Of a stretch of 64,000 nt of DNA, positions 3,530 to 64,000 are shown in pieces. The DNA is from Blepharisma japonicum (Eukaryota > Ciliophora > Heterotrichea > Heterotrichida > Blepharismidae): the NCBI GenBank assembly GCA_949751835.1, contig CATKHK010000069.1:186001-250000 (forward strand). The letters run 5' to 3'. The notes beneath the pieces are model-generated. The model saw only the letters and a list, made by a program, of their open reading frames with translations. It was not told the DNA's origin and made no database searches. The position numbers were made by a program, and so were the translations under genes. Position 1 is the stretch's first letter. Each line of letters opens with the position of its first letter.

Positions 3530-6500
3530 TTATTTTTCAATTTTTTTATGGCTATCATTTAATGGTTGGATACTGTTTCTCATAATTCCAGCTTTGGTTA
3601 GCTTATGATGGATAATTCCATATAGAGTTCTTGCAAAAATAGCTATTGAAGAAAATGATTGAATTATCATAACTCCTATCACAATAGCTACAATGGCATT
3701 TTCAATTGTCGAAACAATTTCTTGCTCTATATTGAATAAATAAACTGATGTAGAGCTCATAACTAAGCAAATCATAATTTCAGTCAATAAATTATTGATT
3801 TGCAAAACTGGGTCCTCGAAAGGCCAGAAAAAGATCAGATGCAAGATAGTCATTAAGGAAAGAACAATATTTATTGTGACTTCAGTTTGTGGATATTCCC
3901 TTAAAAATATCAAGTTTATTATGTAGATAAATCTCCTTATAAAGAATACAAAATAATACTGTGTTGCAAGGAGACCTCTATCGACTCTGAATTCATAAAA
4001 AAAGGAACTAAATAATTCTGTGAAGCTCTTTTCTCTCGACTGGATTCGATTTTTATTTTTATAAGAGAACCAGAAATATCCCGGTGGAGTTATAACTAGT
4101 AATATATAAACAGCTAAACATAAAATAAAATTAGTAATTTGCGTGAAATTGTTGAGTCCAAAAGTAATTAAGCCAATACTGGCTGCAGCTCCTAGTTCAA
4201 GGTAACACTGTATTCAAAATCTCAAATAAAATCCAAATTGATAAACTTTTACTGTTTTCATAAACTTTTTGCCAATTCACCTAAATGAGCATCGTGAAAA
4301 GAAGAAAACTGCAGGTAGAGCTGATAATGAAGCAAGAATTATTGTAAAATCATTGCCTTGGGTTATTAAAATCAAATCACTATCAAACCCAAAATCTTGA
4401 GCTTGGGAATATGGAGTATTTCCTTCATTTTTATCAATTATATACGTAAATATATTTGGGAACAAATTAAAGGAATTCAAATTATTCAAAAACGTGTACA
4501 TTTTGGATGACATAGGAATTCCTGATAAAGTCAAATAACTCAGAATTTGTAAGCTGTTTATCATACTTCATAAAGAACTAGGGTTTGGATTTACTATTGA
4601 TAAGGCAACAGCTCCAGCAATAGCAGCTTGAACCCCAGCTGCTGCTTTTGACGTAATTGCTTCAACTGCTGCAGAGTAAGGAGCTGGGTCATAAGAATTG
4701 AGTGGTGCAGAAATATCTGAAGAATTTAAGATGCCGTTTGATATTGATCTTATATCTGTTAGATTTGAGAATTCTACAGTAGCTAATGTGCCTTTAGATA
4801 TTTCTTTAGAAATAACTAGAGAAATATAATAGCAGGTGCTATTCACCTCCTCCATTTTATATGAAACCTCTCCTTGCTTTTGAATTTTTATAATAAAATC
4901 ATTTGTAGAGAGACTGTTAGCAAGACTTTCAGAAAAAGTAAAGTATAGAGAATTGTCTGAAAGAACGGTCAGTTTTATTGAAAAAGGAACTAATGTACAG
5001 TTTTTTGTCCCATTGTAGCCTAAATTGCAGTAGCATAGATCATTTGTAAGGCTGGCGTTATCTACACAAGAATTGCATTTTGTAGAGGATTCACAATAAG
5101 TGCATAAGCTAGGACATGGATATAATTTTCCATCAGGACCTCTAAATCCACCTGCTTCCACTGGAATACAAGAACTATTGTTAGAATAATCAAGTACATA
5201 GTATATATCGCAAATGCAAGAACTAGGATTGATAGAATTTTCTTTGCATAATGTGCATCCAGCAGATGAATAATCATTACAAGAATCACATAATAAATTA
5301 TCGCAAAGAGAGCAAGTCGATCTTCAGTCTCGACAGGTTTTCTTGCATTTTGCATTACACTGATAACATTTATTATAGGCTGGACCACTCCAATATTCAT
5401 TTATTTTGCAATTCGGTATGCATGCTTTGCTTGTTGGACAGACGCTACAGCTTTCAGTGCAAGAGGCTGTTGAAAGGCTTGATATCGATTTTAGTGAATT
5501 AAATATCTGTATACTATAAATAAAGCCTTTATAAAAATTAAAAACTGATCCGGAACTAAGCTGAGCGCCTATAGACATTGTGGTATGAGGACCTTTATCC
5601 TGAAAAATCCCATATACTGTGAGCCCTTGTGTGTCAGATAATCCATTTATATAGCAAGACAGTTTACTATAACTGTTTTGAGTCAATTCTAATGTAAATA
5701 CTATGTGACTCCATTCGTAGCTATTAATTAGCCGATTGCACATATAAAATATTTGAAATGAGCTTAAGTTAAATGAAATTGATGCTTGGCTGCTCATCAA
5801 GGAGGTGGAATATAACGTTGAATAACTGTCAGAAATATTCTGCTTTGACAATAGAGTGCCATATGAGGTTTCTGTGTTTGCTCATATAGAAATTGTAAAG
5901 GTAGAGGTAATTACGAGTCTTGGTGATAAATAATTTGAATATTCAGGCATTCTCAAAACTGAAGCCTCTCCATTTAAATAAAATCCTCTTAAATAAGCAG
6001 GAATAGGATCATCAGTTTCATAATTGGGATAAAATTGCTTAGTTGATCCAGTTATAACAGGAATCGAGTTTACCTTATCATAAACTACTCCATTCAGAGT
6101 ATTCAGATCCAAGTCAAAAATTTTTTCTTGAACCAATACGCAAACACCTCCAGAAGGAGAATATCCTAACGGGCAGCTATTTGTGCAAATTCCCGATACA
6201 TTATAAAATCCATTAGAGCATGTCTGACAGTCTAATGAATTTGATGATGTACAAGTTTTGCAAGAAGCATCACACGCACTACAGCTTTCATTGGTGCTAT
6301 CCAAAAAGTATCCTGAATTGCATTGACAACTTGTACTGATTAAAGTTGCGTGTGTTTTACAGGTGATGCATGTGTTTGTATAATCATCACATACTTCGCA
6401 TAATGTATCTTTGCAGAGATTGCAACTTTTATCAATTCTTACACAACCCTTCATTAAGCATCCAGATGAGCATGTGACACAGCTGTTACCATTTCAATAT

Positions 6501-9500
6501 TGATCTATATCGCAACTATCCAGACAAGAATTTGAATTATCGATTGGACATAGAGAGCATCCACTGCAAGTGCTTGATGTTAAACCGCTGACTGCTATTA
6601 GTGTGTTATAAATTTTGAGATCTCATAGAAAACCATTAAAAAATGACGCTAAGGTTGAGGGGCTAATATAGCCTGCCCCAATTGTGATTAAAAACGAATT
6701 TTCTAAATCACTTAACCAACTTGAACCTAAATCGCTGGATGTATCGACTATTCCATTTGTAACTAAACTAATAATTTGTTGGGGTGTAGCACTTATGCTG
6801 GAGCTTGCCGATATGAAATTTCATTGAGAAAGAGTAGCCTCTAATGATGGATTAGCACTTGTAAAAGTTTTTATATTAGAATCTTTTAGAGTTAAAGTAA
6901 GTGAAGGGGCTTTGTTTATCAATTCCAAACTAATATATTTTTTAAAAGGACTACTATTGACTTGCTTGGAAAAGATTACTCCTGTACTTGAAATAGGCTT
7001 TATTCATGCGGATATAACAAAATTTGGCGAAAATGTGAGCAATGGAGAAGTGGCGCCTGCATAAGGAGGCAACTGCATATAAGATGAACCAGAAAAATAA
7101 TAACCTCTATAAATAGCTGCTATAGGATCAGTTGAGTCATAAACAGGATAAAATTTGTTATCCTTCCCTGTTAATACATGAATATTTGACTTCAAATCAA
7201 TAACAATATCTTTTATTTGATGAGGCATCAAGTTAAATATAAAATAATTTGAATAACTTGGATCGCTATCACAGTTACCACCATTTATAATATACCCAGT
7301 AGGACAAAATGGCATACAGAATGATTGTATTAGATAGTAACTGGAAATACATGTGAGACAACCATTATATTTAAGAGTTGAACATGTCAAGCACATTGTA
7401 TCACAAGGTTCACACTTATCTGAGTCTCAAATAGTATTAGCAATACATTCACAATGGGTATTTACTTTATGAGCATTTGTAATACAACTTGAGCATTCTC
7501 CTGAAAAAGTGGTACATGATAAGCATTCTTTATCTCTGCATAGTCTGCATGTTAAGCCATTAACACATCCTTCACTGCAACCAGTCTTGCAAACAGTGCA
7601 GCTATCTGGATACTCATTTACTGCACAATCACTTAGACACTGATGATTGGAAGGACAAGCAGAACAGCCAGTTGTGCATGAAGAAGTTGCATAATCATCC
7701 GATCTATAATTATGAGCGTTATATATCATTAATCTTGCTAAAAATCCATATAATCCTGAAGTCCCAAAAGTTTCATCATTTCCAACATAGAGTGACCCTG
7801 CATTAGTATCTTTAAAATAAGTAGAAGATACTGAAGTGATAGAACTGAAAGATGCTGAATTATCGATATACAGCTTTACAATTGATTTTCCATCATCTTG
7901 GACTTGGCATGTAAAGCTTAAAAAATGCCAACTTAATATAAGGCTTGTGGAGGTAGTTAAAGTTTGGGTTGATGAATCATCAAAAACAATTGAAAGCACT
8001 GGAAATCCTGATGTGTCGACTTCAATTTTGAGAATTTCAGCAGAAGTGTATTTAGTCATCAAAATTCCATGGTCCATAGGCTTAATTCATAAAGAGATGG
8101 TGAATGATGGAGCTATCATGACTGTAGAGGATAAATAATCACTTTTATAAAAATAGTACCCTCTTTTATAAGAAGGTATAGGATCATTCAAATCAGATGA
8201 CGCCAAACCAGAATAAGTATTTGTGTTAGAATTCCCAACATTAAAGCCAGAAACGATGTCTAGCCTAACTTGGTCTGTTAAATCAAGACTAATTCCTAAA
8301 TTTGATGCCCAATCACAAGTTTTCGCCCCTGAATTTTGGGTATATCCAGATGGGCACTCAACAAGACACTGTCCAGTATTAGCAAAGAAGTACCCAGAAC
8401 TGCATGCTGTGCATTTATTATAGGTTACAGCTAAGCATAACGAGCATCCACTAAAGCAAGAAGCGCATGATAAGCCATCAGTGGATCTTCCGAATCCAGC
8501 ATTACATAAGCAAAGTCCTGAAGATAAAGTTACACTGGGATCACATTGAGTGCATTTACCAGAATCAAATCCTGTGCAAGTTATACATAGCGGGTCATCA
8601 CAAATATTACAAGTACTAGACCGTCTGCATCCATTGGTACAAGAACTGCAAGCAGAGATAGAAGCTCCATTTTTATAAGAAGAAAGATCACAGGCTCATA
8701 AGCAAGATGCCCCTTGCCCTGAGTCACAAAATGTAAAACTGCTTATAATGGCTGGAAATCCTGAAATTGCTGTATTTCAGAGCTGAAAATAATAAATAAA
8801 GCCGACAAATCCAGGATTATTGCTTTTACCTAGTATTAGATAGGTCGATGGTTGGTCTCTGTAAATTTTTTTTGTTATACTACTTGTTGAACTTGAAACT
8901 CCATTTACATAAATCGTAAGGGTTGTACCTCCTAGTGAATATTCAAAAGTGACTGACAGATAAGCCCAGCCAGTAAATGATAAACCTGGTGCCAATGTCT
9001 GAGAAGAAGTTACTTGAGCTGGATCTATCATTGTTGCTTCTATAGATCCTGTAGACGTCAACTTCAAAAGACTTTGCTTTTGCAATAAATCACCATTAGT
9101 GATTACATATAGTCATAATCCTATTGAAAAACTATGAGAAATATAAACAGTTGTTGAGGATAATAAATACATAGTTCCATCAAAATATAAGCCTCGTTTA
9201 TATGCAGGGATTGGATCAACGCTTTCAGGGCTGCTGGAAAACTGAAAAGTTGCTGCACTTGTTCCTGTTGTAAAAATTCCATAAGACCCTTGAAAATCTG
9301 TATCAAAAGATTGATCAATCACTGCAGCCGTTACTGTTGAGCAAGAAGTGCTATATGGACACTCATTAAGGCATACACTCCCTGCTAATTGATTGATTCC
9401 TGAACAATTTGAACATTCAAAATAAGTTGTTTTTAAGCAAGTCGAACAAAGAGCATCACAAATTTCACAAGTTTGGCTTGAAGACACCCAGAAAGCATTA

Positions 9501-12500
9501 GAAGCACAAGTGCAGCCTCCATTTCCATCACTAACAGCATTTGTAATACAAGTTAAGCATGAATTTGTTCCTGTAAACTCAGTACATGTAGCACATTCTT
9601 TAGTCTTGCAAAGGTTACAAGAATCAGAGTTTCTGCATCCTTGATTACATGTATTTATACAACTCGCACAAGGAGAACCATCATAATAGCCAGTTAATGG
9701 ACAATTGTCTGGGCAACTAAAATCTGCTGGACACTTTGTACAGCTACCTGAGCATCCGGCAGTTTGCCAGTCATCTAATGCATGATTACTTTGGCAGTAA
9801 ATTTTTAGTTCCCACAAAAAACCAATAAACCCACCGCTATAAAGCCCAATGTAAAAGTTTCCTGTTTTGCTGTCCAATAAATAAAGTGGGCTTAAAGATG
9901 TAGAAACAACCTGAGAAGCAGCATCAATATAAGAACTTATTGTGGTTGTTCCATCAGAATTAATTTTGCTATCAAATGATATGAAAAATCAGTTGTTAAG
10001 CACATTTGAGGATCCTATAACTGAAACAGTGCTTGAAGAATCCATTAAGAGGAGAGAAAGTTTTGGACAACCTGAAGATAAAATCTGAACAAACCACTGG
10101 GTTGTTGATACGTATTTTGTTATAACCATTCCGCTTGATGTAGCCTTTATTCATAGAGAAATTGAAAAATTTGGAGCAAGCATAAACATTGTAGTTAAAT
10201 AACTATTGGAATTAAAATAGTATCCTCTGAGATATGCTGGAATTGGATCATTCGAATCATAAGTAGGGTAAGAGTTAGAAAATGAAGATCCTACTTGTTT
10301 TCCAGATAGCTGGTCAAGCAATATTTGATTGCTAAAAGATAAGCTAAGTGGAATTATAGAAGACAAATCACAGTTACCTGTGCCTGTATTTTTTGTATAT
10401 CCTGTAGGGCAATCTGGAAGACACATTTTGCTGTTATAAAAATAAGAGCTGGAGCTGCAGGAGGTGCATAAATAATAATATGAGCCTGTGCAATGAGCAC
10501 ACCCTGCATAGCAAGCAGAGCATAAAGCTTGGTTTACATAAGGCTGATAAAATCCAGAATTACAAGAGCATGGAGATCCAGAAGCGTTAGTAATGCATTG
10601 TGTGCAAGACCCTGACCAAAATGACGAACATTGAGCACATAAAAAATCATCACAGATATAGCAAGACGTCCCTCGAGTACAACCATTTGTGCAGGATGAA
10701 TCTAAGCACGATGTACAAGCAGATCCATCATAATAATACATATAATCGCATGACCAAAAAGATGATACTGAGCCTCCTGTCAATGTATTGATACTATAAT
10801 AAGCAGAAAAATCACTAATTGCCACCTGTCAAAGGATAAAGTAAGCTATAAATCCATTGAAATTCGGTGACCCTTTGCCGATATATAATGTTCCTGCTGG
10901 AGGTAGCCGAAATATATAATCAGTTATAGTTGCTGGAGTTCCTGCAATCTTGTTGAGATATGGGGTCATAGTTGAGACTTTATTAGCAAAGCCAAGTGAA
11001 TAGGAAATATAAGTTCATGTATAAGAAGTTATAGACTGCGAAACAGAGTAGCTTGAAGGTGAAGATGAGCCATCCCATTTTTCTAAGTAAAAAGTGGCAG
11101 TTCCACTAGAATCAATAGCAAGCTTATTTGTGCTGTGACTAATTATTGTCCCAGATATTGCATAAACCCACATCGCCATAGTCCAAGTGTTAGACAAATT
11201 TATAGATCCGCTCAAATATTGATTAGAGTCAAAGTAAATTCCTCTATTTTTTGCTGGCTTTGGATCAGAAGATTCTGGAGAGTTCCAATAATTATAGCTT
11301 GCAGAACTTGTACCCGTCTTCAGAGCAGTTCCATAACTTCCTGCGAAAGTCCCTGTAAAATCAGCCGTTATAACAGCTGTATTAACAGCTGCACAATTTC
11401 CAAAGCCATATGGACATGCATATAAGCAAACATTCGCAACCAAAAAATTTCCAGTGGTGCACCCTGTATTTGTCCAGGTTTGTGAGCAAGCTGTCCCTAT
11501 ATAATCACAGCAATTAGGAACTACACCTGTATTGCAATTAATACACGTTAATGGAGGATATCCTTTGCAAGTAATGCAATCAAGGACATTACAAGTAATG
11601 CAATCAGTTCCTCTAATACACCAAGGCCAAGTTGGGCAATTTGAGTCACAGTTTTGGCAAGAAGAGCCATCCCAATACTGGTTATCAACACAATTAATAG
11701 TAGCAGTCAAGGCAGCAGTGCTCTGAGCGCAATCCGCTCTTGTTTGAAGCCAATAAATAAACCCTCTGAAAGAATTCCCGCCGCTTGTATTCCCAATAGT
11801 CCATGTATAGCCCAGCTTTGGAACTCTTGCTTCTGTGCTGCTAAACGCTGTGTTCCCAACATTGTTTCCATCAATATAAAAAGAAATATTTGCTGTATCA
11901 CAGGAAGATTGATTAATAATCATTGAAGCAGTATGTCATGAAGACGTATAGCTTATAGTGGCAGTTGCAGTTTGTGAGGCTTGATTATTATTTGAATCAT
12001 AAACAAACATTGTAAATTTATACACACCTGAAGAATCAGCCCATATTCTTATATAAGAAGTTGAGCTGTAAATAACGTTTAAAATTTCACCACTATTAAG
12101 GGGCTTAATTCATATATTTAGTGTAAAATAGCAGCCAGGAATGAAGCCATTGCTATTAGAAGTGCTTGAAGTAGTCGCAAAATAAAAACCACGGTCAATA
12201 GTTGGGAGAGGGGAATTTTGAGTTGAAGACATATATCAAATGGAGCCTGGATTTTGGAATTTTATAGAGGAATCAGTTGAGCTTGCTATGTAAGTAGCGG
12301 TTAAATCCTTGATACTTGAGAACTGCAAATCAAAAATAATTGCACTATTTCCACTATTTGGATAGCATCAAGAAATAATAACCAATTTCTTACCTGAAGT
12401 AAATCCTGAAGGGCATGCATTTGAGCCTGTACATATTTTGGCATCAATCATTTTTGAATTAACACAGTAAGCAATACCACTGCTATGAGTCGCGCCATCA

Positions 12501-12559
12501 TACGGACAATAAGCAGATGTCAACAAAATTTTGGCGATAAAAATCAGAAGAATTTTCAT
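3530..12559 (-). CDS. Gene B: giant receptor-like protein, seven LamG/Cys-rich pairs plus multi-pass membrane domain
   Basis: One uninterrupted frame of 3010 codons when TGA is read as Trp; it ends in TAA. The start at 12559 gives a hydrophobic signal peptide (MKILLIFIAKILLTSAY) before CPYD. LamG-like modules, each marked by a D-P-x-P/A-x-x-R-G-x-Y-F motif, have that motif near residues 123, 438, 776, 1121, 1468, 1818 and 2195. Each module is followed by a Cys-rich furin/GFR-like block with many CxxC pairs; the last ends near 2520. A membrane-proximal domain covers about 2523-2626. About 7-8 hydrophobic helices follow from about 2640 to 2993, with conserved landmarks DFTIILASLSALP, FYEFR, RRFIYIINL and TEVTINIVLSL. 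The cytoplasmic tail ends NDSHKKIEK. The helix bundle resembles the TRP-like C-terminal domain often annotated on ciliate Cys-rich proteins (from memory, not searched). Function is inferred: a cell-surface receptor or adhesin. No introns are evident. Confidence 0.85.
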
Positions 12560-12799
12560 TATGTCTGTAAATGATTAAAGGTGAAAAATCTCAATTTTTA
12601 AAGGATAAATTATTTATTTTGCTTAGAATCAGCCAATAAAGTCTTTAACTGTATTTATTGTTATTAAAAACTAAAATCAAAAAGCATAGTTGACAAAAAT
12701 AATTATACACATTCTTTTATATAGAATGTTGATTCTGTTAAAGAATAAAATAAGCTTTGCTTTCTTAATACTTGATCAGCCAAAAAGAAATTCACTAAA

Positions 12800-14161: not shown

Positions 14162-17100
14162 TTAATTATGCTTCATAAAGTTTTCTGATTCATTAAGATT
14201 TTTACGAATTATATGGTACATTGTCCTTGAAAAAATTGCAATTGAAGAAAGTAATTGAACTCCCATCACTGTGATTACAGTTGCAACTATCATATATTCA
14301 AAAACTGCAACTAGTTCATTGTTTATATTAAATAAATACACTGAAATAACAATCATTACTAAGCAAACCAATATTTCAGTCAGCAAATTACTTGTTTGAA
14401 TGATTTGATCTCTAAATGGTCAGCAGAAGAATAGATGCATAATAGTAGATAAAGAAAGCACGATATTTACAGTAACTTCTGTTTGTGGATAATCCCTTAA
14501 ATAAACCAAATTTATTATGTATATTAGTCTTCTAGCAAAAAATACAAAATAATATTGTGTTGCCATAAACTCTTTATCTGTTCGAAATTCATAAAAAAAT
14601 GTGCCAAATAATGAGTTAAAAGATTTGTCTCTATATTTGATTTTATATCTATTTTTATAAGAAAATCAAATATACAAAGGTGGAGTTATAACTAAAGGTA
14701 TCAACAAAATGATGCATAAAATCAGGTTTGCAGCTTGGGTAGGATTACTATAACCAAATGTGATAAGGGCTATGCTAATTGCAGCACCTAATTCAAGATA
14801 GCATTGAATTCAAAATCTTAAATAAAAGGCATATCTATAAGACCTTAATGCTTTCCTAAATTTTTTATTAAGCCATCACAGAGAACACCTTGAAAAATAG
14901 AAAACTGCAGGAAAAGCCACCAATGATACCAGAATAATTGTAAAATCATCTCCATGATTAATTAAAATTATATCAGAATCATATCCAAAAGTTTGAGCCT
15001 GAGAATAAGGAGTATTCCCTTGATCTTTTTCTATAAAATATATAAAAATATTTGGAAAAATGCTAAATGAATTCAAGCTGTTCAAGAAAGCTATTATTCT
15101 GTCTGATAAAGGTATCCCTGATAGCGTTAAATAGCTAAGAATCTGCAAAGTGTTCATCATAGTCCATAAAGAGCTAGCACTCGGATTTATAATTGACAAA
15201 ACAGCAGATATTGATACAATTGCTTGTGTAGCCGCTGTAGTTTGAGAAGTAATTGGAGCATAAGAATCTGGGTCATAAGAATTTAAATTTGCCGAAATTT
15301 CAGATGAATTTAATAAGCCATTTGATATTGATCTGATTTCTGTGAGATTTAAAAATTCAAGAACTAATAATGTTCCTTTGGAAACTTTGCTGTTAAAGCT
15401 TAAAGAAATATAATAACATGTCTCATTCTTGTGCTCAATTTTTCAAGAAAAATCTTTATGGTTTTTGATTTTTATAGTAAAGTCTGATGACGAAAGAGGG
15501 TTAGTGAGATTGTCTGAAAAGTTAAGATATAAAGAGTTATCTGATAAAACCATTAGGCTAGCTGAGAATGGAACTAGCTTGCATTCCTTTGTGCCACTAT
15601 AGCCTAAACTGCAATAACATAAATTATTTGATAAGCTCGCATTTTCTACACAAGCTATGCATTTTGTTAGAGACTCACAAGAAGTGCATAGGTTTGGACA
15701 AGAATAAAAAAGTCCGTCTGAACCTCTGAATCCGCCAGATCCGATTGGAGCGCAGGTGCTATTATTAGAGGTATCCAGAACAAAATCAATATCACATATG
15801 CAAGAATCAGGGTTTATAGCATTTTCTTTACAAGTTATGCATCCTACAGCAGAATAATCTATACAATCTTCACATAGTAGATTATCGCATAATGAGCAAG
15901 CAGATCGTCAATCCCTACAGCTTTTCATGCAGTTTATATCACATTTTAAGCATGAATTATAGCTTGGACCACTTCAATATTCATTTATTTTGCAATTAGG
16001 TATACAAATATGATTTACAGGACAAATCCCGCAACTTTCTGAGCAGATAGTAGTTGATAGCTGCGAAATTTGGATTATTCCATTATATATCTGTATTTTG
16101 TATATGAAGCCTTGATAAAAATTATATATTGTGCCTGATGATAGTTGAGCTCCAATAGTTATTGTCGTGTGAGAAATGATATCTTGAAAAGAATCATGTC
16201 CTGCTAAAACAGATGGATTAGGAGATGCATTTATATAGCAAGTTATGCTATTATATCCAGAGTCAGCTTGCTCTAATGTAAAAGTTATATGGCTCCATTC
16301 ATAATGACTAAGAGAAGTTTGACATATGTACATGAATGAAGATGAGTCTATAATTAATGAAATTGCTGGCTTATCATTCATGACGAAAACTGCATAAATA
16401 ATTGATAAATTATTAGATAAATCATGTTTAGATAGTAATGCATAAAACGATGTTTCTGAATTAACTCATATTGATATAGTAAACATAGATGCAATAATAA
16501 GTTTAGATGATATAAAATTCGAATATTCAGGCATTCTCATTATAGAAGATTTTCCATTAAAATAAAACCCCCTCAGATAAGCAGGGATAGGATCATCGTC
16601 TTCATAATCAGGATAAAATTTCTCAGAAGACCCAGTTATTACAGGGATTGAGCTTGCTTTATCATAAACTATCCCACTTAGAGAATTTAAGTCTAAATCA
16701 AATATTATTTTATTAGCCAAAACGCAGCCAATTGGAGAGTTTAAATATCCTGAGGAGCAACTTTTTGTACATAGACCTGATTTCATAGAATAACCAGTAG
16801 CGCATACTAAACAGCTATCAGTATTAAGATAAGAACAGGCTGAGCAAGAAGGATTGCAGAGTTCACAGGACTGAGAACTAGAAATTCATAAAGCATTTGT
16901 AAGGCACATACAATGATCAGTTGGCTTATAAGCATTTGAGATGCAGGCTAAGCATTCTCCTGCAAAAGTGGTGCATGATGAGCATTCTTTGTCTCTGCAA
17001 AGTCCACAAGTTAAATCGCTAACACAACCTTTATGACAGCTTGCCAAGCAAGTTGTACAGCTATCTGGATATTCATTTAGAGCACACTCGCTTAAACATT

Positions 17101-21995: not shown

Positions 21996-22264
21996 TGTTT
22001 AAAATTGCAACTAATTATTTTAAAAGTAAGAAAAATTCAGCATTCTCTCTTGTTTTGCATTTGGAGCTTATATTAATCAAGATAAAGATAGCAACAGTGT
22101 TGACTAAATTAAGTAAATCTAAAGTTTATTTCTATGATTATAAATTAGCTATTTTAATAATTTTATAAAGCATATTATTTTAATAATTTTTAAGATTAAT
22201 ATTTAATTTTAACGAAATAGCCAATTTTTTAAATACAATAATTTATTTCTAATATTTATGCTAT

Positions 22265-43788: not shown

Positions 43789-43794
43789 CCTCAT

Positions 43795-50300: not shown

Positions 50301-53300
50301 TGAAGAATCACAGGTATTTGTTGAAGAATTTGTGATATATCCATCAGGACATGCAGAGAGACACATACCGCTATATAAGTAATATCCTGTAAAACACGAT
50401 GTACACGAGTTATAAAAAAAGTTCAAACACTTTCGACAGCCAGTATTGCATTGTGAACAAATATAGTCATACTTAGTGAAGTACCCATCATTGCAAGCAC
50501 ATAACTTAGAAGGAGCGCCTGCAGAATTACCAACGCACTTTGTACATTTCCCTGGGCTGAAATTTGTGCATGAAGCACAAAGAGGATCGTCACATTGATT
50601 GCAAAGAATATTCCGAACACAGCCAGTTAAAGAGCTATCACAAGCTGCACAGCTTGTAGAATTATTGTATTGAGCTGAAGTATAAGTATATAGGCATGTG
50701 CTTTTAAGCCCTGCTCCACAAATATTGTTATTAATTCATGAAGAAAAGTCACTTACCAATGCATTTCAAAACTGGAATGAGTAAATATAGCCCACAAAGC
50801 AGTTATTATAAGCATTGATTCTTCATACACTTGTTGAAACCTGCCTTAGCAAATAATTTCATTTCGTAATATGATAAACTTGGTTCCCATTTACAAACAC
50901 CTGTATTGTTGTGCGATTGGATACATAGTTTACGGTAAATGATAAATAATTTCACGCATCACTTGGTACTGTCTGTGTAGGTGTAGTAAACTTATACTTT
51001 GTTCTCCATTTATTAGTTAGCTGATATAATAGAGACCCATCAGTAGAAAGCACAAAATCATAGTTATAAAATGAAGAATAAAAAGTTGCCAAGTTTCCAT
51101 GAGTTATAGTATTAACTCATATTCCTAATGCAACATCATAGAATAACCGAACAGCACTTGTCTCCAAATATATAGCTTCATTTATAAATAAACCTTTCTG
51201 GACTGGAGTTATTGCATCATTACTATCAAGGGTCTTAAAAAAGTTAAGGCGATTCGTATCCATTTTATTTTTGAATACTCCATAGGTCGTTTGGAGACCT
51301 GTATTAAATAGCTCATTTATGACAGGAGTTGATACAGGAGAGCAGCCAGCACCAAAGCCATATGGGCAAGAACCCAGGCAAGCTAAAACTGCTAGAGTAT
51401 ATGCAGAATAGCACACTGAGCACTCGAAATATGTTGTGCCGAGACATACTTTGCAGGATTTATCACAGAAATCGCATATCAGAGTATCTGGATTCCAAAA
51501 ATAAGAGTCGTTGCAAGCACAGCCACCATTTCCATCTGGAGATGCATTACTAACGCATGAAGTGCATGGACCTGAAAATGATAGGCAACTATAGCATGCA
51601 GGCATTTTACATAGTCCACATGAGATGCTATTTATGCAGCCTCCTGTACAACCACTAAGACAGTTCATACAAGTAGAAGTCGAAGTATCTAAATACGATG
51701 AAAAAGGACACATTGGAAATACTATTCCGTATGGGCATGGAGTGCCCCCACATCCAGCTGCATTTCAATCAATTGAATATTTATTTTCATCGTTATACGC
51801 TGAAAAGCTTCATAAAAACCCTGCAATGCCTCCAGATGATTTCCCAATGTACATATCACCTAAGTCATATAAATATGCTTGGCTTGCAGATGTAGATGAT
51901 GCTTCAATAGCATTATTGATATAGATTTTTAAATTCGTGTTGCCAGAATAAGCTGACCCAATGATCGATAAATATTTTCAATTATTTATCATAGAAGAAA
52001 TTCCTAATAAGTTCATTGTAGAGCCATTCGATAAAGTTAATGAAACTGATGCATAGTTTGTTCCTGATGCGATAGAAATCAAAATATAAGTGGTAGTCGA
52101 GGATTTCCTGAATAACGTTCCTGAAGCTACTGTGTATACCCAAAAATTCAAAGCAAAAAAGGGTGACATATAATTTCCTGTGCTTGCTAAATAGCTTGTT
52201 GATTTGAAATAATATCCTCTATTATAAGAAGGTATAGGATCATTAGTATCATAAATTGGATACAAGTTAGTATTTACTGATCCAACTTTGAAAGTAGAAA
52301 TTGCGTCTAAAAGGATAATTCCATTGAAAGCTAGTGAGGCCACTAAATCTGAAACCTGAACACATTTATGTAATGTAGTGTCTTGAGTATATTGAGAAGG
52401 ACAGGTAGTCATACAAATAGACTTAAGCAAATAAGTACCTGTTGGACAAGCAGTGCATGAATAATAGCCTGGGCCAGAACATGCAGAACAAGAATTATCA
52501 CACTGTTCACATTTTTGAAGAGTATAGTTTGGATAATATCCTGTATTACAGGCGCATGGGGCTCCAGTAGCATGCTCGATGCATTGGCTGCAGCTTCCAG
52601 TATTAAAGGAGCTGCAATTTCCACATAAATTATCATTGCAAATATTACAATTTCCATTTAAAACACAGCCAAATGTGCATCCTCCATCACATGCAGTGCA
52701 GGCTGATCCCCAAAATAAAAATCCACAATTTCATAAGCAGCTGATCCCATTCCCAGTTCCACATCCTCCATCTCCCATTTCTCCAGAAAAATCACTGATA
52801 ACTCCTCCCCAGAGTTTAAAATAGCTTACAAATCCATTATAATTACTGGAAATACTTTTACCTATAAATAACTTATCATTGCTGTTTGGTCTAAATACAA
52901 AATCGATGATTGAGCTTGGCAAGCTTGGGGAGTTATTGGAATACACAATAATTGTTGTTTGCTTATTGGAAAAGTTAACAGAAAAGGATAGATATTTTCA
53001 AGCAGCGGTAATAATAGAGACAGAGTTTGATAAAGTGATTGTTGCTGTATTATCTCAGGATTTTAATAGTAAAGTAACGAGGCCTGAAGAAGAGAATTTG
53101 AGATCTCCATATGAATTTCCTAATATATCTCCTGATTCAGGTCTTATTCATAAGGAAATTGTAAATGTATGCGAAAGATCAATGGATCCTATTAAATATT
53201 TTCCAGATGAAAAATACAGACCGCGATTTTGAGATGGGACAGGATCTACAGTTTCTGGTAAATTAAAAAATTGATAACTTGAAGAATCAGTTCCGGTAAT

Positions 53301-54488
53301 AAAAATCCCATAGGTCCCAGAAAAAGGCACATTAAAATCAGCTGAAATTAAAATTCCTGTATTCAGAGAACAACTTCCAAAGCCATAAGGACAGGAATTT
53401 AAACATATGCCATTAATCAACAATTTTCCAGCTTTGCATGCACTGCAACTCCAAGTTTGGCTGCAAGTATCACATAAAGCATCACAGCATCCAGGAATTA
53501 CCCCAGTATTGCAGCTAGTACACATTGAAGTTTCATAGCCATTGCAAACTAGGCAGTCTAGACTTTTGCATATCAAACAATTCTCGCTTCTAATGCATCA
53601 TGGTCAGTTTTGGCAAGAACCACACGATCGGCAGTTTGATCCATCCCATCATTTGGAATTTAAGCAGACTGGAGGACTAATAGCAGGAAAATAAATTGTG
53701 CTGCCACTATTAGCTTGGATTCAATAAATAAAGCCTTGGAAAGAATTTACTGGGTCTCCTATAACTCAATCATAATTCCCATTAGGAAAGTTTGCTTCTC
53801 TATTAGAAATAGTAAATGATGTTGGATTATTATTTATAATGATTTGTAAACCAATTGAGTTATATGTTGCTTGAGTATATTGAAAAGTCACTGGCTCTCA
53901 AGTATTAATTATTCCAGACCCTTGAAAAGATACTAAGTCATTTATTCCAGAATTGAGCGGGTTTTTCGATAATAAACTTATCTTATAATTCCCAGATAAA
54001 ATTTCAATTATAATATATTCTAAGGTTCCGATTTTTGTTTTAAAAATGACTCCAGAAGTAATAGGGAAAATTCAAATATTCATCGTAAATAAATAGCCAG
54101 GGATAAAATTATTTGAATTTTTTATGCTTGAAGAGGCTGCAAAATAAAACCCTCTGTCTAGAGTAGGAAGCGGAGTATTTTGACTTAGATCAGCAAATTG
54201 AAGATTTGAAGGGGTTAAAAAGCCATTAATTGCTTTTGCTGTCAAGTCTTTCTGAGATGTGAAGTCAATTAAAAAAATTTGGCCTGAAGGAGATGAGCAG
54301 GTAGGGGTTGGGGTTGAAGAAAATATTGAATTGGTCGGGCAAGCTTCTACACAGAGTAAATTTCCTATGAGGCTGTAGCCAGTAGAGCAGAGAGTACAAG
54401 GAACTGAACAATAAGATGAATCGCAATATAAGCAGCATTGAGAAAATGCCAATGGTAGAAGAGAGACTAAAAATAAATATATCTGCAT
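44397..54488 (-). CDS. Gene G: longest family member, eight LamG/Cys-rich pairs plus multi-pass membrane domain
   Basis: One frame of 3364 codons with TGA as Trp, ending in TAA; it appears intact. The start at 54488 gives signal peptide MQIYLFLVSLLPLAFSQ, then CCLYCDSSYC. LamG motifs lie near residues 113, 424, 756, 1099, 1443, 1789, 2181 and 2554. The fourth is divergent, with NDAITPVQKGLFINEAIYLE in place of DPIPAYxRGYYF. Cys-rich blocks follow each; the last spans about 2726-2880. The membrane bundle runs from about 3003 to 3343 with GSSFTLILLSISAFPIVL, RRLIYIINLVYL and TEVTINIVLSLITIMH, and the tail ends NDKNPTYKAVN. It has one more module pair than B and two more than C. It is the probable parent of, or sister to, F. 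A large cell-surface receptor or adhesin anchored by a channel- or receptor-like bundle is the best inference. Confidence 0.88.
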
Positions 54489-55449
54489 CCTTATTAATAT
54501 ATATTTGAGATTTTAATATATAAGCTTTAGACAAAGCAATGCACCATTTTATGCAACAACTATGCAAAGTATTCAGCCATTAGATTCTTTATAATTTAGA
54601 TTTATGAGAGAATAGCTTCTTTCTGCTCTTTGTCGAAATTATTGGATTTCATTTCTTTTACTTCAGGATGCCTTTCTTAACTTTCGCATTCTTTCTCTTA
54701 AAATTAAATGTGAATAATATTTCAATGCTTCGAATATTCCAAGACTCCATGGATTAAGACAGAGGATTGTTAATTTTACCTTTTTATCGTTAAAGATTCT
54801 AGATTTTAGCCTAAACTACCTTAGAATATCCTGCTTTTTCTTATTTGTCTTTAATTTTCCTTTAATTATAAAAGTATTCATCCCGAATTTCAATTTGGCT
54901 TACTCAATTTTTTCGCGGCAAATTCCTACATCAAGTTGTATTTGAATTTTTCCTTTCAAGTCTTTTCGCCTACTAAATATCACTTAATTCGTTTAATTTC
55001 ATTTAATTTCGAAATTAATTCATTTTTTTCTTCTGTTTCTTTAAATTCCAAATATTCATCTCCAAGATCTTCATAGCTAGTTCCATCAGTTTCAGCATCA
55101 TCAGTTTCATCCAAGCAATAGTTTACTCCTGTCTCTGCTAACACAAGCCCTGAATCTCCACTTTAATAACTTTCATCTTCACCTCCAACATTTTTCTCCT
55201 CATAGCCCTCATCTTTACATGTATCTCGCTAACTCTCTCCCAAGCACCTCCCCAATTCAGCACTAGACTGAAGGTCGTTTCCACATCTCCATCTCACATT
55301 CTCAACGCAACTCTTGCCTCGTCCTCTTCAAATCCCAAATTAGCCAAGGCCTAAATTTTCGTTTGAGCCTAAATCTCTTTCTCTTAATTAAATTAAAATA
55401 TTTTTAATAAGAGTATTTTTCAATTTTTTAAGTCTAATTATAAATTCTT
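54489..55449. other. Intergenic region between genes H and G
   Basis: 961 bases. The part at about 54489-54832 is homologous to the DNA upstream of F and marks the right end of the duplicated unit. A decayed UBA-like gene fragment on the minus strand covers about 54990-55362 and is listed separately. The remainder is AT-rich 3' flank of H. Confidence 0.65.
54990..55362 (-). pseudogene. Decayed UBA-domain gene fragment with acidic tail
   Basis: On the minus strand from 55362 the sequence reads KI-(TAG)-ALANLGFEEDEARVAL, then RMWDGDVETTFSLVLN. This is a good match to a UBA domain: hydrophobic-x-x-LGF, E-E-x-A-x-x-A-L, G-D-V-E, then hydrophobic residues. After a frame change the strand reads a long acidic stretch (DETDDAETDGTSYEDLGDEY) and then a Lys/Glu-rich helix-like segment. 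TAG and TAA interrupt at positions where Gln would fit. No start or stop fits an intact gene. It resembles the remnant at 33.1 kb on the other strand. A functional gene with unrecognised introns is possible but less likely. Confidence 0.5.
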
Positions 55450-58400
55450 CTATTTAAAGGGATCTAAACTTGCTTTAATTGGATGAACACTATATTTAAT
55501 ATTTTCATGTCGAGAAAGCTTATATCTAAAAATCTGATAAAAGTCTCTAACAAAAATACTGGCAGATGAACAAAATTGAGCTCCTATGATTATCATTGAA
55601 ATAAAAATGATGCTATTTTCCACCCCAAATATCACACCTGAACTTGTATCAAATAAATAAAATGACGTTATAAACATAATGACCCCTATGAGCACTTCAC
55701 TTATTAAATTGGAAATCTGCAGAATTTGATCTCTGAAAGGTCAATAAGCAAGCAGATAAAATATGCTCATAATAGAGCATATAATATTGACAGCCACTTG
55801 AGTCTTTGGGTATTGACTGAAAAATACTAAATTGGTTATATATATGAGTCTCCTTAGAAAAAAGACAAAATAATAAAGCGAGAAAAGGTATCCTTTTTCA
55901 GTTCGAAATTCATAAAAAAATGAATTGAATAATAAATTGAATTTTCTGTTGTTTCTCATAATTTTCACTCGATTCTTATAAGAAAATCAAAAGAATACTG
56001 GAGGTGAGGCTATGGATAATATATATAATAAAAAGCAAATAAAAAGATTAGTTACTTGAACTATATTATTGCCTCTAAGCATTACTAATCCTACACCTGC
56101 TGCAGCGCTGAGTTCAAGATAGCATTGTATTCAGAATCTTATATAAAATGAAAATTTGTAATCGCTAAAGATATTTGCGAACTTTTTACCAACAATTCTA
56201 TATGAACAGCCAGCGAAATATAATATAAACGGAAATAAAATTATTGACGCTATTATAATGGTAAAGTCATCTCCTTGATTCAATAATACTAAATCAGTAT
56301 TGTAGCCAAAGTTTTTAGCTTCATTATAAGCCTTGCTTCCTTCTTTTTCATCAATTAGATACTCAAAAAGATTAGGTAATAGACTATAGGAGCTTAAACT
56401 TGATAAAAATTGATTCATTTTATCGGAAAAAGGAATCCCTGATAGCGATAAATAACTAAGGATTTGTAAACAATTCATTAAGCCTCATAAAGAGCTTGGG
56501 TTTTGATTTAAAATTGAGAATACTACACTTCCAATCACAGATCCCTGCACAACTGTGGTGATTTTTGAAGCAATTTGAGACACCAATAAACTATAAGGAT
56601 TTGGATCATATTCATTAAGGTTTGAGCTAACTATTGAAGAGTTTAAAATTCCATTTCAAATTGATTTTACTTCTGATAAATCTATGAATGTGACATTTAC
56701 GACCGTATTCTGTGGTATTTCATCTTTAATAGATAATGGAAGGCTATAGTATGTTTTATTTATTTGCTCAAGATTTCAAGAAAACTTTGGGTCATTCTCA
56801 ATTGATATTGCGATATTGTCTATACTAAGGCTGTCTTGCAAAGGATCGGAAAAATTAAGAGATAAAGAGTCATTGGAGTGGACTATAAGATTTACAGAAA
56901 ATGGAACATAATTACAACTTGTTGTTCCATTGTAGCCATTAGCACAAATACATAAATCATTATATAAGATTGCGTGATTGATGCAAGAAATACATTTTAT
57001 ATGTGATTCACAAGTTAAACAAAAATTTGGGCAAGTATTAAGAAGATCATCTGAGTCTCCTTCTGGTGTTTCTGGTGTTTCAGGTGTTTCTGGTGTTTCT
57101 GGTGTTTCTGGTGTTTCTGGTGTTTCTGGTGTTTCAGGTGTTTCTGGTGTTTCTGGTACTTCTGGTACTGAAATGCAAGAACTAGACCCATCAAAGACAT
57201 AGTTTATATCGCAAACACAAGTATTGCCCACAAGAGAAGCATTTGATTTGCAAGTTACACATCCATCTGCAGAATAGCTGATACAAGTATCACATAGAAC
57301 ACTATGGCAAGCTGAGCAAGATGCTCTGCTGTCTCTACATCCATTATTGCAATTTGAGTTGCACTGAAAGCAGTTATTATATTCAGGCCCTTTCCAAAAT
57401 TCAGAAATCTTGCAATTGGCTATACATAAGTCATTTATGGGACAAGCACTGCAATTTTCAGAGCAAGACGTAGATGATAATAAAGAAACGGAATATAATA
57501 TATTATATATTTTAATCTCGTATAAAAATCCTTGAAAGAAATTTCCTGGATCTTGAGATGTTTGTTGAGCACCTATAAGAGATATTGCATTAGAATTTAT
57601 ATCTTGAAAATATCCAAAACTAAGAGTTGATGAAGGGTCTGAATTTGTATTTACATAGCATGTCACAGCTGTGTTTCCATCCTCATCAACATTTAATTGA
57701 AATAATAAATGACTTCACTCGAAAGTTGTAAGTGAGATTTGGCACAAATAAATAAGTACTGAATTATCGATTAGTAGCTGAATTGCAGGCATGCTGCTAA
57801 TTAAATAAATTGCATAAATAACTGAATAGCTATTAGAAGCATCATTTTTTGAAATCACATATGAATTTTCATTCTCAATATTTAATCATATAGAAATAGT
57901 AAAAATTGGGCCAATTTCCAGCTTAGGTGATAAATAAGTTTGATACTCAGGCAGCCTCATAACTGAAGATATTCCATTAAAATAAAAGCCTCTCAAATAA
58001 GCACTTATAGGATCATCGTCTTCATAATCTGGGTAAAATTGTTCAGAGGATCCTGTTACTACAGGAATTAAGCTGGCTGAATCATAAACAACTCCGTCCA
58101 ATGTATTCAAATTTAAATTAAAAAGAAGCTGAGTTGTCAATAAACATTCGCTTGATGACTTTGTATATCCTATAGGGCAATCAGATAAGCAAGATTTGAT
58201 TGTTGATAAATAATAATAGCCAGCTATGCAGGATGTGCATTGATAATAAAGTTGTCCTGTACAAGAAGAGCATCCGGTATAGCAGGCTGAGCATATAGCC
58301 TCCCCAGGAGGCTGGTAAAACCCATTATTACAATCGCATGAGCTACCTGAACTATTATCAACACAAAATGTGCAAGAACCAGGTAAAAATGAAGTGCATT

Positions 58401-60206
58401 CTAAGCATAATTCGCTAACACAAATATTGCATGAATCTGCTCTTACACAGCCATAGGGGCATGAACAAGTAAAGCATCCATCCTCATCACAATATTGATT
58501 TATATCACATTTCCAAAGACAATCAAGATAATTTCCTGAATTGCAAGGAATAAACATATTTCTATTAGAAAAACTGGAAATAGCAACTTGTCATAGTTGA
58601 AAAAAGCTTATATAGCCCTGAAAATCAGAAGAGCCGAGGAAAAGTGATCCTCCACTTGGAGGTCTAAATATATTATCAGTTGGAGAAGAGTAAGTGCTAT
58701 CAAGAGATTCAAATTGATACCATCTAAATGTAGAAACTCCGCTCTCTTGATCAAATTCCATTGTAAAACACAAATAATATCAGTCAAGTGAAATCACACC
58801 TCCTGTTCATGATAAATCACCACTTGAAGAAGTCACGCCAATGTTATTATCCATTGCAATATTAAATATATGAAAGATTTATTTTTGCTTCTAAATATTT
58901 ATCAGAAGAAAAATAAAGTCCTCGTTGCTTTGCAGGGATAGGATCATATATCTCACCATCATTTCCAAAAAAATAGGCAGAATCACCTATCCCAGTAACT
59001 AAAATGTCATCATAAATACCCTTAAATTCACCTGTAAAATCAGCTGTAATTACAGGAGTAGTGATTGGTACACACATGTCAAAGCCATATGGGCATTCAT
59101 ATAAACAGATTTGATTAATAAGATGATATCCAGCTTTGCATGTGCTGCTGTGCCAAGTTGAGTCACAAGTATCGGCTAATCAGTCACAAATAGGTGGTGA
59201 TTGTGTTTTACGCTCAATGCACATATTAGGAGCATATCCAGTGCATGCAATACAATCTATTGAATGGCATATTGAGGAGCAGTTACTTCGTATGCACCAG
59301 GGTCATTCTTGGGAGCAACTTAAATCACATTCATGACATTGATTCCCATCCCAGTATTGAAGATTAAGACATTCGATTTGAGGGCTCATCTCTCAATAGT
59401 CTAAGGCTAAGTCATTTCTTGCTTCAGTTCAATACAAAAATCCTTGAAAAGAATTCCCTGGGTTTCCTATTGTTCAGGTATAAATTCCATCTGGAAAATT
59501 TGCTTCCTGACCCAAAAAAACTTTGGTTATCATGCTACTCATTTTTGTAAAAATTTGCAACTGAACTGAATTGCGTGTTATTTGTTCAATTTGAAAAGAC
59601 AGATAGTTTCATAAGGATAAAGTTTTTGAATAATTGATTGATAATTGAGATTCATTGTAATTGCTTGAATTTTTAGAGATAATCTTAAAAGAAACTCCGC
59701 TCTCTAATATGCACTTAATATAATCTTTTGAGTTCGCATTTACAGTAATAAGAATCCCTTGAGATATTGGATGGATTCAAAAGTTCATAGTAAAATAAAG
59801 CGAAGGAATATAGCTTTTGCTGCTTATTATTGATGAGGATGGCTCAAAATAAAACCCACGGTCTAAAGTTGGCAATGGGGAATATTTCATCAAGCTTCGA
59901 TAAGAAACTCCTAAAGGGTTTGTCCATTTATGTGTATAATTACTTGAACTTTGGATAGAAGACGCTGATAAATCTTGGGATTTCCAAAACTCAAAGCTCA
60001 AATAACTTGGGTGATACTGGAAGATTGCATTTGACAAAAGGAGTTGATTCCTTAATGAATTGAGAAGGACATATTTCAGCGCAAATTTTGCCATCAATCA
60101 TGTACTTAAAATTCATATCTGTGCACATTTCTGATATGCTGTTCTTTTGAGATGATGAAAAAGCTATTAGAATGCTTGAGAGCAAAATGAGCTGGTATAG
60201 TTTCAT
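55450..60206 (-). pseudogene. Gene H: short family member with two frame breaks and a PET-repeat hinge
   Basis: The start at 60206 gives signal peptide MKLYQLILLSSILIAFSSS. The frame then shifts near 59997: after PKLFEL the codons CTT TGA carry one base more than expected, and dropping it gives FELEFWKSQDLS as in gene D. A second break is near 58865-58880. There the sequence goes from KINLSY straight to FNIAMDNN, missing about 86 bases (about 29 residues) present in E and D. Below 58860 the frame is open to the TAG at 55450, with the third LamG module, Cys-rich blocks and an intact membrane bundle (tail KYSVHPIKASLDPFK). Between the two halves of the last Cys-rich block, the usual GGYRGPDGLFYPCPN loop is replaced by about eleven Pro-Glu-Thr repeats. 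It is probably a pseudogene, though assembly error or variant excision could also explain the breaks. Confidence 0.7.
57056..57168 (-). repeat. 9-base minisatellite encoding Pro-Glu-Thr repeats in gene H
   Basis: The plus strand repeats GGTGTTTCT or GGTGTTTCA about eleven times, with GGTACTTCT variants at the right end. On the coding strand this is in frame as Pro-Glu-Thr, between VPEV and EGDSDDLL. No other gene in the window has it at this place; the others have a short Gly/Tyr-rich loop. Nearly identical units suggest recent expansion. Confidence 0.9.
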
Positions 60207-60912: not shown

Positions 60913-63900
60913 TTAAAGAGCCGTTTCACTTTCTTGTGATTGCAATGAATGAATGCTAAGCTTATCATTTCCATACTGAGAGATTTTATATCTAATAATT
61001 TGATAAATTGTTCTTGAGAAAATACCAACAGATCCAAAAAATTGTATTCCCATGATTGTCATAGAAATGAAAATAATTCCATTTTCTATTCCAGCAATTA
61101 TGCTTGAACTTACTTCAAACAAATAAAAGGAAGTTACACACATAATAAAGCCTATCATAATTTCGCTTACTAAATTGGAAATCTGCAGTATTTGATCTTT
61201 AAATGGCCTATAAAAAATTAAATAAAAAATACTCATCAGCGAGCATATAATATTTATAGAGACTTGAGCCTTTGGATGTTTACTCAAAAACACTAAATTG
61301 GTAATATAAAAAAGCCTTCTTATAAAGAAAATAAAATAATAAAGAGAATAGAGAAATCCTTTCTCAGTTCGAAATTCATAATAAAACGAACTATAGAGCA
61401 AAGCAAAGTTTCTTTTATTTTTTTGGATTTTGTATTGGTTTTTATAGGTAAAATATCAAAAGGCAAGGGGTGAAGCGATTAATAATGAAAACACTGCAAA
61501 GCAAATAACAATATTTGCTATTTGAATTGCATTATCACCTTTTAGCATCGCTAGCCCTACAGCTGCTGCAGCTCCAAGCTCAAGGTAACACTGCAGTCAG
61601 AATCTAATATAAAATGAATATTTTAAATTTTTTAGTATACTTTTAAACCTTTTTCCGACCAATCTATATGAGCAATCTGCGAAATATATTATAAATGGCA
61701 ATGAAGTCATTGACAATATAACGATTGAGAAATCATCTCCTTGATTCAATAAAATTTGATCTGTATTATATCCATACTTAAGAGCTTGAGCATAAGCTTT
61801 ATTCCCATCTTTTTCATCTATCGCGTATTCAAAAAAATTGGGAAAAAGGTTGTAAGAATTCAAATTTGATAAAAATTGACTCATTTTTTCTGTAAAAGGA
61901 ATGCCAGATAATGATAAATAGCTAAGAACTTGCAAACAGTTCATCAAGCCTCATAAAGAGCTTGGATTGGGGTTTAAAAATGATAAAGCAATACTTCCAA
62001 TGACAGCACTTTGCACAGTTGCCGTAACTTTCGAAGTAATTGCAGCTACTACTAAACTATAAGGGCTTGGGTCATACTTATTGAGTTTTGAGCTAATTGT
62101 TGAAGAATTAAGTGTTTCATTTCAAATTGATTTTACTTGTGATAAGTCAAAAAATGTAACATTTACTATTGCATCTTGTTTAATTTCATCTTTAATAATC
62201 ATTGGGATGCTATAATATGTTGTATTTATCTCCTCAAGATCTCATGAGAAATCTGGATTATTTTCTATTGATATTGTCGTGATATTTGCTTTCAGTGAAT
62301 TTTTTAAAGGATCTGAAAAATTAAGAGATAAGGAATCATTAGCAAAAACTATAAGAGTGACAGAAAAAGTAGAGTCAGTGGAATTTGTGGTTTCATTATG
62401 AGTACTGATATCACAGTCAGTATCACATATACAAGTATTGTTCTTGAGAGTAGCGTTTGATTTGCAAGCTATGCACCCGTTTTCAGAAAAATCTATGCAA
62501 CTCTCACATAAGGAACTATAGCAAACTGAGCAAGACTCTTGATTGTCTTTGCATCCATTTTTGCATTTTGAATTACATTTAGAGCATTTATCATATTCAG
62601 GTCCTTCCCAAAATTCATCTATTTTACAATTTGGCAAGCATGATCCATTTATATGGCAGGCATTACAATTTTCAGAGCAAGATGGAGTTGCCAATAACTT
62701 AATGTCATAAGCTGTATTAAATATTTTAATCTCATATAAAAACCCTTGAAAGAAGTTTCCAATATTTTGAGATATTTGTTGAGCTCCTATAAGAGTGACT
62801 GCATTCAAGTCAGTGTCTTGAAAATATCCAAATCCAGCAGTAAATGTAAGATCTGGATTTGTATTTATATAGCACACTACAACAGTATTCCCATTACTGT
62901 CTAATTTTACTAAAAATGCTAAATGGCTTCACTTATAAGAGTCAAGGGATACCTGACATGTAATAGAAACTGCTGTATCATTAATCAGTAAGTGAAGAGC
63001 TGGTTTTGAACTGCTTAAAGTAATAGCATATATAGTTAAATAATTATTTGAAACATTATTTTTTGAGATCAGAGATGAATTCTCATTTTCAATATTTAAT
63101 CATATAGAAATTGTAAAAATTGGTCCGATATTTAGTTTTGGAGTTATATAAGTTTTATACTCAGGCAATCTCATAACTGAAGATTTTCCATCAAAATAAA
63201 AACCTCTTAAATAAGCACTTTTTGGATCATCATCTTCATAATTCGGATAAAATTGTGCAGATGATCCTGTAATTACTGGAATTAAATTTGCATCATCGTA
63301 GACGATTCCGCTTATACCGTTCAAATTTATATCAAAAACAAGATCTCCCTTAAGTAAGCATTCATTTGTAGATTTTGTATATCCTAAAGGACAATCGGAT
63401 AAACAAATATTTGCTTGAGATAAGTAATAATATCCAGATATGCATGATGTGCATTGATAATAAAGTAGTCCAGTACAGTCTAAGCACAAATTATAGCAAG
63501 GTGAGCATTCGGGTTTGCCAGGTGTTTGAACATATCCTTTATCGCACTTGCATGGGCTTCCTAATGCATTTGTTGCACACAATGTGCAAGAGTTAGTTGA
63601 AAATGATGAGCATTTCAAGCATAAGTCATTTTCACAAAGACCACATGAATCTGCCCTTATACAGCCATTCGTGCATGATCCTAAACATTGTTGGCAACTC
63701 GATCCATCAAAGAACTGATCATAATTGCAATTTCATAAGCAGTCTAAACTAGTCCCTGGTATACATTTAAAATAATTTTTGCCATCTGAAAAACTTGGAA
63801 TCGTTTTCTGTCATAGTTGAAAATAACTTATAAATCCATTAAAATCGGAAGATCCAATAAAAAGTGATCCTCCTGAAATTGGTCTAAAAATGCCATTGTC

Positions 63901-64000
63901 GATAGAAATTGGATTACCAGATACAGCATCAATATAAGGTGTGATTGTTGAAGTTCCATTATAAAAGTATTTAATCGAATAAGAAATGTAGTTTCACTTC
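60913..64000 (-). CDS. Gene I: family member, C-terminal part (probably a short type), runs off the right edge
   Basis: About 1029 codons are visible in one open frame, with TGA as Trp, ending in TAA at 60913. From the right edge the protein reads the end of a LamG module (SGGSLFIGSSDFNGFISYF), a Cys-rich block, a full LamG module (DDDPKSAYLRGFYFDG), a shortened Cys-rich block, the membrane-proximal domain and the membrane bundle (about 60950-61950; RRLFYITNLVFLSKHP). The tail is KLSIHSLQSQESETAL. Compared with D and E the last Cys-rich block lacks about 60 residues: after CICDTDC it goes through a short Ser/Thr/Asn linker to the membrane-proximal domain. The frame is kept, so this is a module loss, not a break. 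Its closeness to D, E and H suggests a three-module gene. Confidence 0.85.

Follow-up and report, generated by a model that had tools for sequence, protein, structure and literature searches.

A tandem family of giant LamG/Cys-rich proteins sharing a helix bundle in Blepharisma japonicum: candidate cell-surface adhesion or recognition receptors

The window analysed here, a stretch of 64,000 bp from the ciliate Blepharisma japonicum, spans bases 186001-250000 of contig C69 (CATKHK010000069.1, 256,672 bp), in a genome of 45.2 Mb and 224 contigs. Most of it is occupied by one family of giant predicted membrane proteins. With TAA and TAG as sole stops and a minimum of 150 codons, the minus strand carries ten open frames of 152-3371 codons (1-40 in-frame TGA each, totalling ~54 of the 64 kb), and the plus strand a single frame of 176 codons. 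TGA is read as Trp in these frames and aligns with Trp across family members. The somatic genome of Blepharisma stoltei (41 Mb, 66% AT) uses UGA for Trp, 15-16 bp introns and CCCTAACA telomeres (PMC9942806). Scans of the window for tRNAs and for Rfam families at the gathering threshold returned no match. The window touches nine family members: five intact, three broken, and one without an in-frame signal peptide. The helix bundle lies inside the window for eight of them, the ninth merely starting at position 456. Members are built in the order signal peptide, three to nine LamG plus Cys-rich units, Ig-like domain, helix bundle and short tail. The features, in window coordinates and with letters for the LamG classes described below, are as follows:

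1-456, minus strand: 5' end of the broken member that leaves the window leftward (contig 177434-186456); signal-peptide-like start, frame break outside the window
2931-3233, minus strand: decayed helix-bundle relic; blastn 81-84% over 68-70 bp to other members' bundles, best tblastn E 6e-6
3533-12574, minus strand: intact member, 3014 codons, 7 LamG (ABcdePZ), Ig-like domain, helix bundle
3533-4987, minus strand: example Ig-like domain, helix bundle and tail, from the member 3533-12574
9335-10372, minus strand: example LamG plus Cys-rich unit
14165-22072, minus strand: intact member, 2636 codons, 6 LamG (ABfgeZ)
22268-27085, minus strand: intact short member, 1606 codons, 3 LamG (ABZ)
27296-32122, minus strand: intact short member, 1609 codons, 3 LamG (ABZ)
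32612-32866, minus strand: decayed helix-bundle relic; best tblastn E 1.6e-6, blastn 78% and 81%
33969-43484, minus strand: broken member, main frame of 3172 codons; 8 LamG matches, of which the first is truncated
43486-43812, minus strand: 5' piece of that broken member, displaced into another frame and carrying its signal peptide and N-terminus; 91% identical to the N-terminus of 44400-54512
44400-54512, minus strand: intact member, 3371 codons, 8 LamG
55453-58878, minus strand: broken member, 3' part, comprising module Z, the Ig-like domain and the bundle
58865-60163, minus strand: 5' part (module A), in another frame, of the broken member 55453-60163
60916-63999, minus strand: member leaving the window (contig 246916-251418), with 3 LamG (ABZ); the sequence upstream has no in-frame signal peptide

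Beyond the window, C69 is mostly this one gene family. A search with the bundle, in which 104 of 111 candidates were scored, places 29 of its 96 rows on C69; these correspond to 27 members, whose frames total ~214 of 257 kb. Two members lie on the plus strand, between the telomere and 18.9 kb, and 25 on the minus strand, head-to-tail from 30 to 257 kb. An unbroken frame, a signal-peptide-like start and a bundle are found together in 19 of the 27; seven are broken, and only the member 246916-251418 falls in the class lacking an in-frame signal peptide. Signal-peptide-like starts were called by a hydropathy rule in 19 members and by eye in five further ones, no dedicated predictor being used, while three have none; in 4 of the 19 intact members the start was judged by eye where the rule missed it. 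An earlier note on the window had described a nine-gene head-to-tail array with a common surface-type layout, uneven module numbers, a shared bundle and broken copies. This picture holds in all these respects: the signal-peptide-like starts, LamG/Cys-rich units and common bundle recur, module numbers vary, and broken copies are found at 55453-60163, at 33969-43484, in the member crossing the window start and in the two short bundle relics. The array is, moreover, larger than first noted.

The LamG modules, also proposed in that note, are the best-defined part of the proteins. Pfam LamG (PF13385, cut-off 27.6 bits) was scanned against two window members and exceeds its cut-off in both: E 4e-48, seven stretches and 163.7 bits in 3533-12574, and E 5e-14, two stretches and 53.2 bits in 22268-27085. 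A custom LamG profile finds three to nine modules in each of the 19 intact members and 163 on the whole of C69. Structure prediction of a LamG unit yields a confident sandwich fold, for which Foldseek returns concanavalin A-like folds (179 matches at E<=0.001). On these profile matches and this predicted fold, the LamG, or concanavalin A-like, identity of the modules can be regarded as secure. The top Foldseek ranks are binding domains of clostridial toxins (~1e-7); we read this likeness only as that of the common sandwich fold. The Cys-rich part displays nine invariant cysteines over 28 units. The furin and growth-factor-receptor (GFR) models of Pfam, which the earlier note proposed for a search, give no match in the two window members scanned (3533, 22268). 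Elsewhere, GF_recep_IV reaches 17.1 bits against a cut-off of 29.5 in a distant paralog (L036), and phmmer proposes R-spondin-2 at a weak E of 0.27. Before the membrane part lies a β-domain of ~100 residues, the predicted model of which bears a weak likeness to S-layer Ig domains. An NCBIfam scan gave a single chance-level match (E 0.19).

The helix bundle is shared across members, with 62% mean identity over 25 of them. Its hydropathy displays five to seven separate peaks in three members and, together with a low-confidence model, the bundle reads as about eight or nine helices; charge suggests that the C-terminal tail is inside the cell. The earlier note had called it TRP-like. Pfam TRP (PF06011) comprises the fungal Pkd2/Flc TRP-like proteins. 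In a six-frame scan of the genome, this profile hits 35 places, eight of them over the cut-off, and six of these eight (on C51, C15, C139 and C110) are also found by a window bundle. On C69, the scan picks up 2 of the 27 members at E<=10; neither, with E 1.0e-3 and 0.24, reaches the cut-off. Among the relatives scanned with Pfam, L037, one of those found with both queries, passes, with 29.4 bits against 28.5, and L039 stays below the cut-off with 27.1 bits; L031 and L036 have no TRP match in the Pfam scan. Since window bundles fall below the cut-off or give no match and L037 exceeds it, the TRP-like proposal survives only as a distant superfamily relation, weak and indirect and mainly by way of relatives. 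No Ion_trans Pfam match at E<=10 occurs in the bundles scanned, so the bundle is not a canonical TRP channel.

Copies of the bundle and of the LamG-Cys unit are also present on C75, C37, C41, C46, C55, C78, C83 and further contigs, with at least 96 genome-wide matches for the bundle and at least 117 for the unit; these counts are lower bounds, 117 of 549 candidates having been scored for the unit. In L037, a LamG-like region (by eye) is followed by a Cys-rich part, DUF4215, a β-domain and the bundle. L037 and L039 each combine a TRP-like bundle with a β-domain, DUF4215 (above its Pfam cut-off) and LamG-like and Cys-rich regions in a single protein, and may constitute a bridge family. In seven (L029-L035) of the eight distant paralogs examined, the bundle contains one or two in-frame TAG, each ending a 15-nt GT...TAG stretch, presumed to be an intron; in the intact C69 members and in L037-L040, the frame runs open through this region. 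The search pattern fits 17 stretches in viral contigs and 58 in prokaryotic ones, none of them confirmed as a relative.

Members differ in their internal module pairs, and their LamG modules form classes tied to position. In a tree of 157 LamG domains (6 of the 163, shorter than 100 residues, being omitted), the first (A), second (B), penultimate (P) and last (Z) modules separate from internal odd and even types. Support is at least 0.997 for A, P and Z, 0.88 for B and less for the internal groups (0.55-0.74 for the two large ones), and several internal modules fall in no class. Modules usually follow the order A-B-(internal pairs)-e-P-Z, reduced at the shortest to A-B-Z; exceptions are 71631, without B, 128364, without a Z match, and 100369, which starts with e. 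The closest relatives are often adjacent members, but the nearest relative differs from module to module. Approximately unbiased (AU) tests, run on the 9 of 27 members that possess all needed modules, reveal that the N-terminal (A+B), middle (e+P) and C-terminal (Z, Cys, bundle) trees each reject the other two topologies (p-AU <=0.0035). Because these segment trees conflict, the members are, as judged from their alignments, mosaics whose N-terminal, middle and C-terminal parts differ in history; misalignment or unequal rates may account for some of the conflict. Furthermore, the synonymous divergence (dS) of the pair 39850/49908 falls to 0.18-0.35 over residues ~500-1300, versus ~0.7-0.9 at both ends, with a further dip near residues 2200-2400, as gene conversion would give.

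Selection on the family appears to be mainly purifying. The ratio of nonsynonymous to synonymous divergence (dN/dS, or omega) is 0.106-0.240 over 12 partitions, which exclude the internal C/D LamG classes; values are averages over modules and windows. The bundle and Ig partitions cover 25 of the 27 members, the bundles of 113363 (broken) and 106642 being left out; omega is 0.125 for the bundle and lower for LamG B. Whole-gene dN/dS is 0.15-0.33 in nine pairs, and the corresponding ratio of proportions, pN/pS, exceeds 1 in none of the 304 windows of the two closest pairs. Only in the C-tail of 24-25 codons does the ratio reach ~1, and in two short pairs only. The diversifying selection that the earlier note had anticipated is therefore not supported, as an average, in the partitions, windows and pairs compared.

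Taken together, this domain order and the mosaic history of the members agree with a set of surface receptors whose binding arms can be exchanged while the base stays the same. The reading we favour, with a probability of about 0.55, is that of a tandem family of giant cell-surface adhesion or recognition receptors, possibly force- or ligand-gated. The distal LamG modules would bind glycans or proteins on another cell, a prey or a surface, the Cys-rich chain would act as a long tether, and binding or pull would be transmitted to the bundle, serving as an anchor or as a Ca2+-permeable channel. The array would then be a store of different binding arms on one conserved base, its diversity arising through duplication, gain or loss of module pairs and recombination, under mainly purifying selection. 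Ciliates select their contacts, be they mates, prey or surfaces, and the locus supplies concrete candidates for this choice. Its lectin-like arms, TRP-like bundle and arm shuffling would couple adhesion to signalling in one molecule, and it offers a case of modular receptor evolution in which recombination is clear and the tests applied gave no indication of diversifying selection.

Several results weigh against the receptor reading. The invariant residues of the LamG modules look structural, and no ligand site was identified. AlphaFold prediction of the Ig-like domain plus bundle, from eight window members, gives a pLDDT of 54.6 and no usable membrane fold; because this model is poor, no channel or receptor fold is supported. 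A profile search of solved structures with the bundle found no sequence match, and Pfam reports no family at E<=10 for window bundles 3533 and 22268. Window bundle 60916 matches PF06011 with 21.3 bits (E 1.4e-4), under the cut-off of 28.5, so that none of the three window bundles scanned reaches it; L040, matched by the bundle search, shows no TRP match in the Pfam scan. Omega gives no sign of an arms race, and the rise in identity from tip to membrane is uneven, module P being highest (0.674, 16 genes) and the Ig-like domain standing at 0.547. The absence of any demonstrable pore or gating feature, with the poor bundle model and the sub-threshold or missing PF06011 matches of window members, leaves room for a simpler, somewhat unlikely alternative, in which the bundle is an anchor only and the proteins form a structural glycocalyx or adhesion layer without signalling. 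Against it, the bundle is among the better conserved parts in identity and omega, even though identity is higher in LamG P and omega lower in LamG B; a single helix would presumably suffice for attachment, and some relatives exceed the TRP cut-off.

Two further alternatives concern mating and antigenic variation. Recognition of mating partners, working by analogy with Tetrahymena MTA/MTB through a conserved membrane part and a differing outer part, appears quite unlikely. The layouts are similar, MTA/MTB having a terminal exon that encodes five transmembrane helices and a Cys-rich GFR domain, and a type-specific extracellular part (PMC10901506, PMC3608545); in Blepharisma, furthermore, the receptor for gamone 1 is only putative, and it is unclear which factors bring about pair formation (PMC10892320, PMC9866912). 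MTA and MTB, however, stand head-to-head, and the somatic genome has a single such pair, whereas C69 carries 19 intact copies, head-to-tail, in two runs. Variable surface antigens expressed one member at a time would account for the mixture of broken copies and mosaic members in a tandem array, and for its place on a contig that opens with telomere repeats. This reading is highly improbable: omega is well below 1 in the partitions and windows examined, and the bundle is polytopic. The telomere at the left end of C69 is weak evidence for it, because in B. stoltei many internal sites receive telomeres (PMC9942806). In a genome search, three CCCTAACA units in a row give 168 overlapping matches, versus 0 for the reversed control; the matches listed include the starts of C69, C78, C80 and C89. 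A bolder form of the receptor reading, which we hold to be very unlikely, would make this a combinatorial contact-recognition locus: LamG arms of varying composition, reassorted by recombination and gene conversion on a conserved Pkd2-like Ca2+ channel, would touch a particular glycan coat, of a mate, of self or of prey, and open the channel directly, and the locus could hold the Blepharisma pair-formation factors. Experiments in vesicles have tested fungal Pkd2, a putative mechanosensitive Ca2+ channel (PMC12028594, PMC11277609).

Comparison with known systems reveals partial likenesses. The PF06011 family, to which fungal Pkd2/Flc are assigned, resembles the array by the distant bundle homology of relatives and differs in that window members lie below its cut-off or give no match; the fungal proteins are not known to carry LamG/Cys-rich arms. 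Tetrahymena MTA/MTB and MRC1, also large membrane proteins of a ciliate, likewise combine an outer part and a Cys-rich GFR/furin-like region with several helices in the C-terminal part (PMC10901506, whose main text never uses the word laminin). MTA/MTB have five predicted helices and diverge from each other head-to-head, whereas 25 members of the C69 array lie on the minus strand and two on the plus strand. The rapidly evolving GFR and leucine-rich repeat (LRR) families of Tetrahymena are also tandem expansions of lineage-specific genes, Cys-rich GFR genes included, found more often in subtelomeric and pericentromeric regions; their largest array is of LRR type (17 genes by strict, 65 by relaxed count), whereas the present one is LamG-based, with 27 members on one contig (PMC6564038, in whose text laminin does not occur). 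Tetrahymena Mdl1p, of mucocysts, is likewise a ciliate membrane protein with LamG predicted to face the lumen or outside, and a missense change in it impairs exocytosis, but it is a 40 kDa protein with one LamG and one predicted helix (PMC9159632). Within open-licence papers, in their accessible parts, no description of this array or of a LamG-PF06011 family was found, and the B. stoltei genome paper (PMC9942806) contains none of the terms laminin, growth factor and tandem in its main text.

In the member 55453-60163, sequence is missing and the frame shifted in module B, relative to 22268-27085. Two C69 members are disrupted by inserts, at 152677-152848 (L024:2677-2848) and 175430-175544 (L026:5430-5544). 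The former consists of 172 bp between 8-bp TTTAAGCG repeats; the latter is of ~115 bp and 15% GC, and its ends share only 4-bp repeats by script. About three quarters of Blepharisma internal eliminated sequences are bounded by TA-containing repeats, and their length peaks include 110 and 174 bp (PMC9942856). Because the two inserts resemble such sequences, some frame breaks may be retained germline inserts. A DNA search of this genome found no second copy of either insert, a miss that does not prove rarity. Short introns were also considered as a cause of the breaks. Within 150 nt of seven junctions, one GT-AG candidate of 14-23 nt joins the frames; it is of 17 nt, in the member 177434-186456, and is not credited because it lies inside a conserved stretch.

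A few other elements accompany the array on C69. Unrelated genes occupy 18899-29344, between the two plus-strand members and the minus-strand run, and appear by eye to be copine-like, aldo-keto reductase-like and TPR-like, with a large helical protein. Inside the array, 122090-124750 (minus strand) is an 887-codon frame without LamG, with, by eye, an outer receptor-like domain and helices, and 125515-127671 (plus strand) is a 719-codon frame of very regular, TPR-like repeats (by eye). Upstream of the member 246916-251418, where its signal peptide would be expected, a tandem repeat (GYVDT-like when translated) lies at ~251500-251700.

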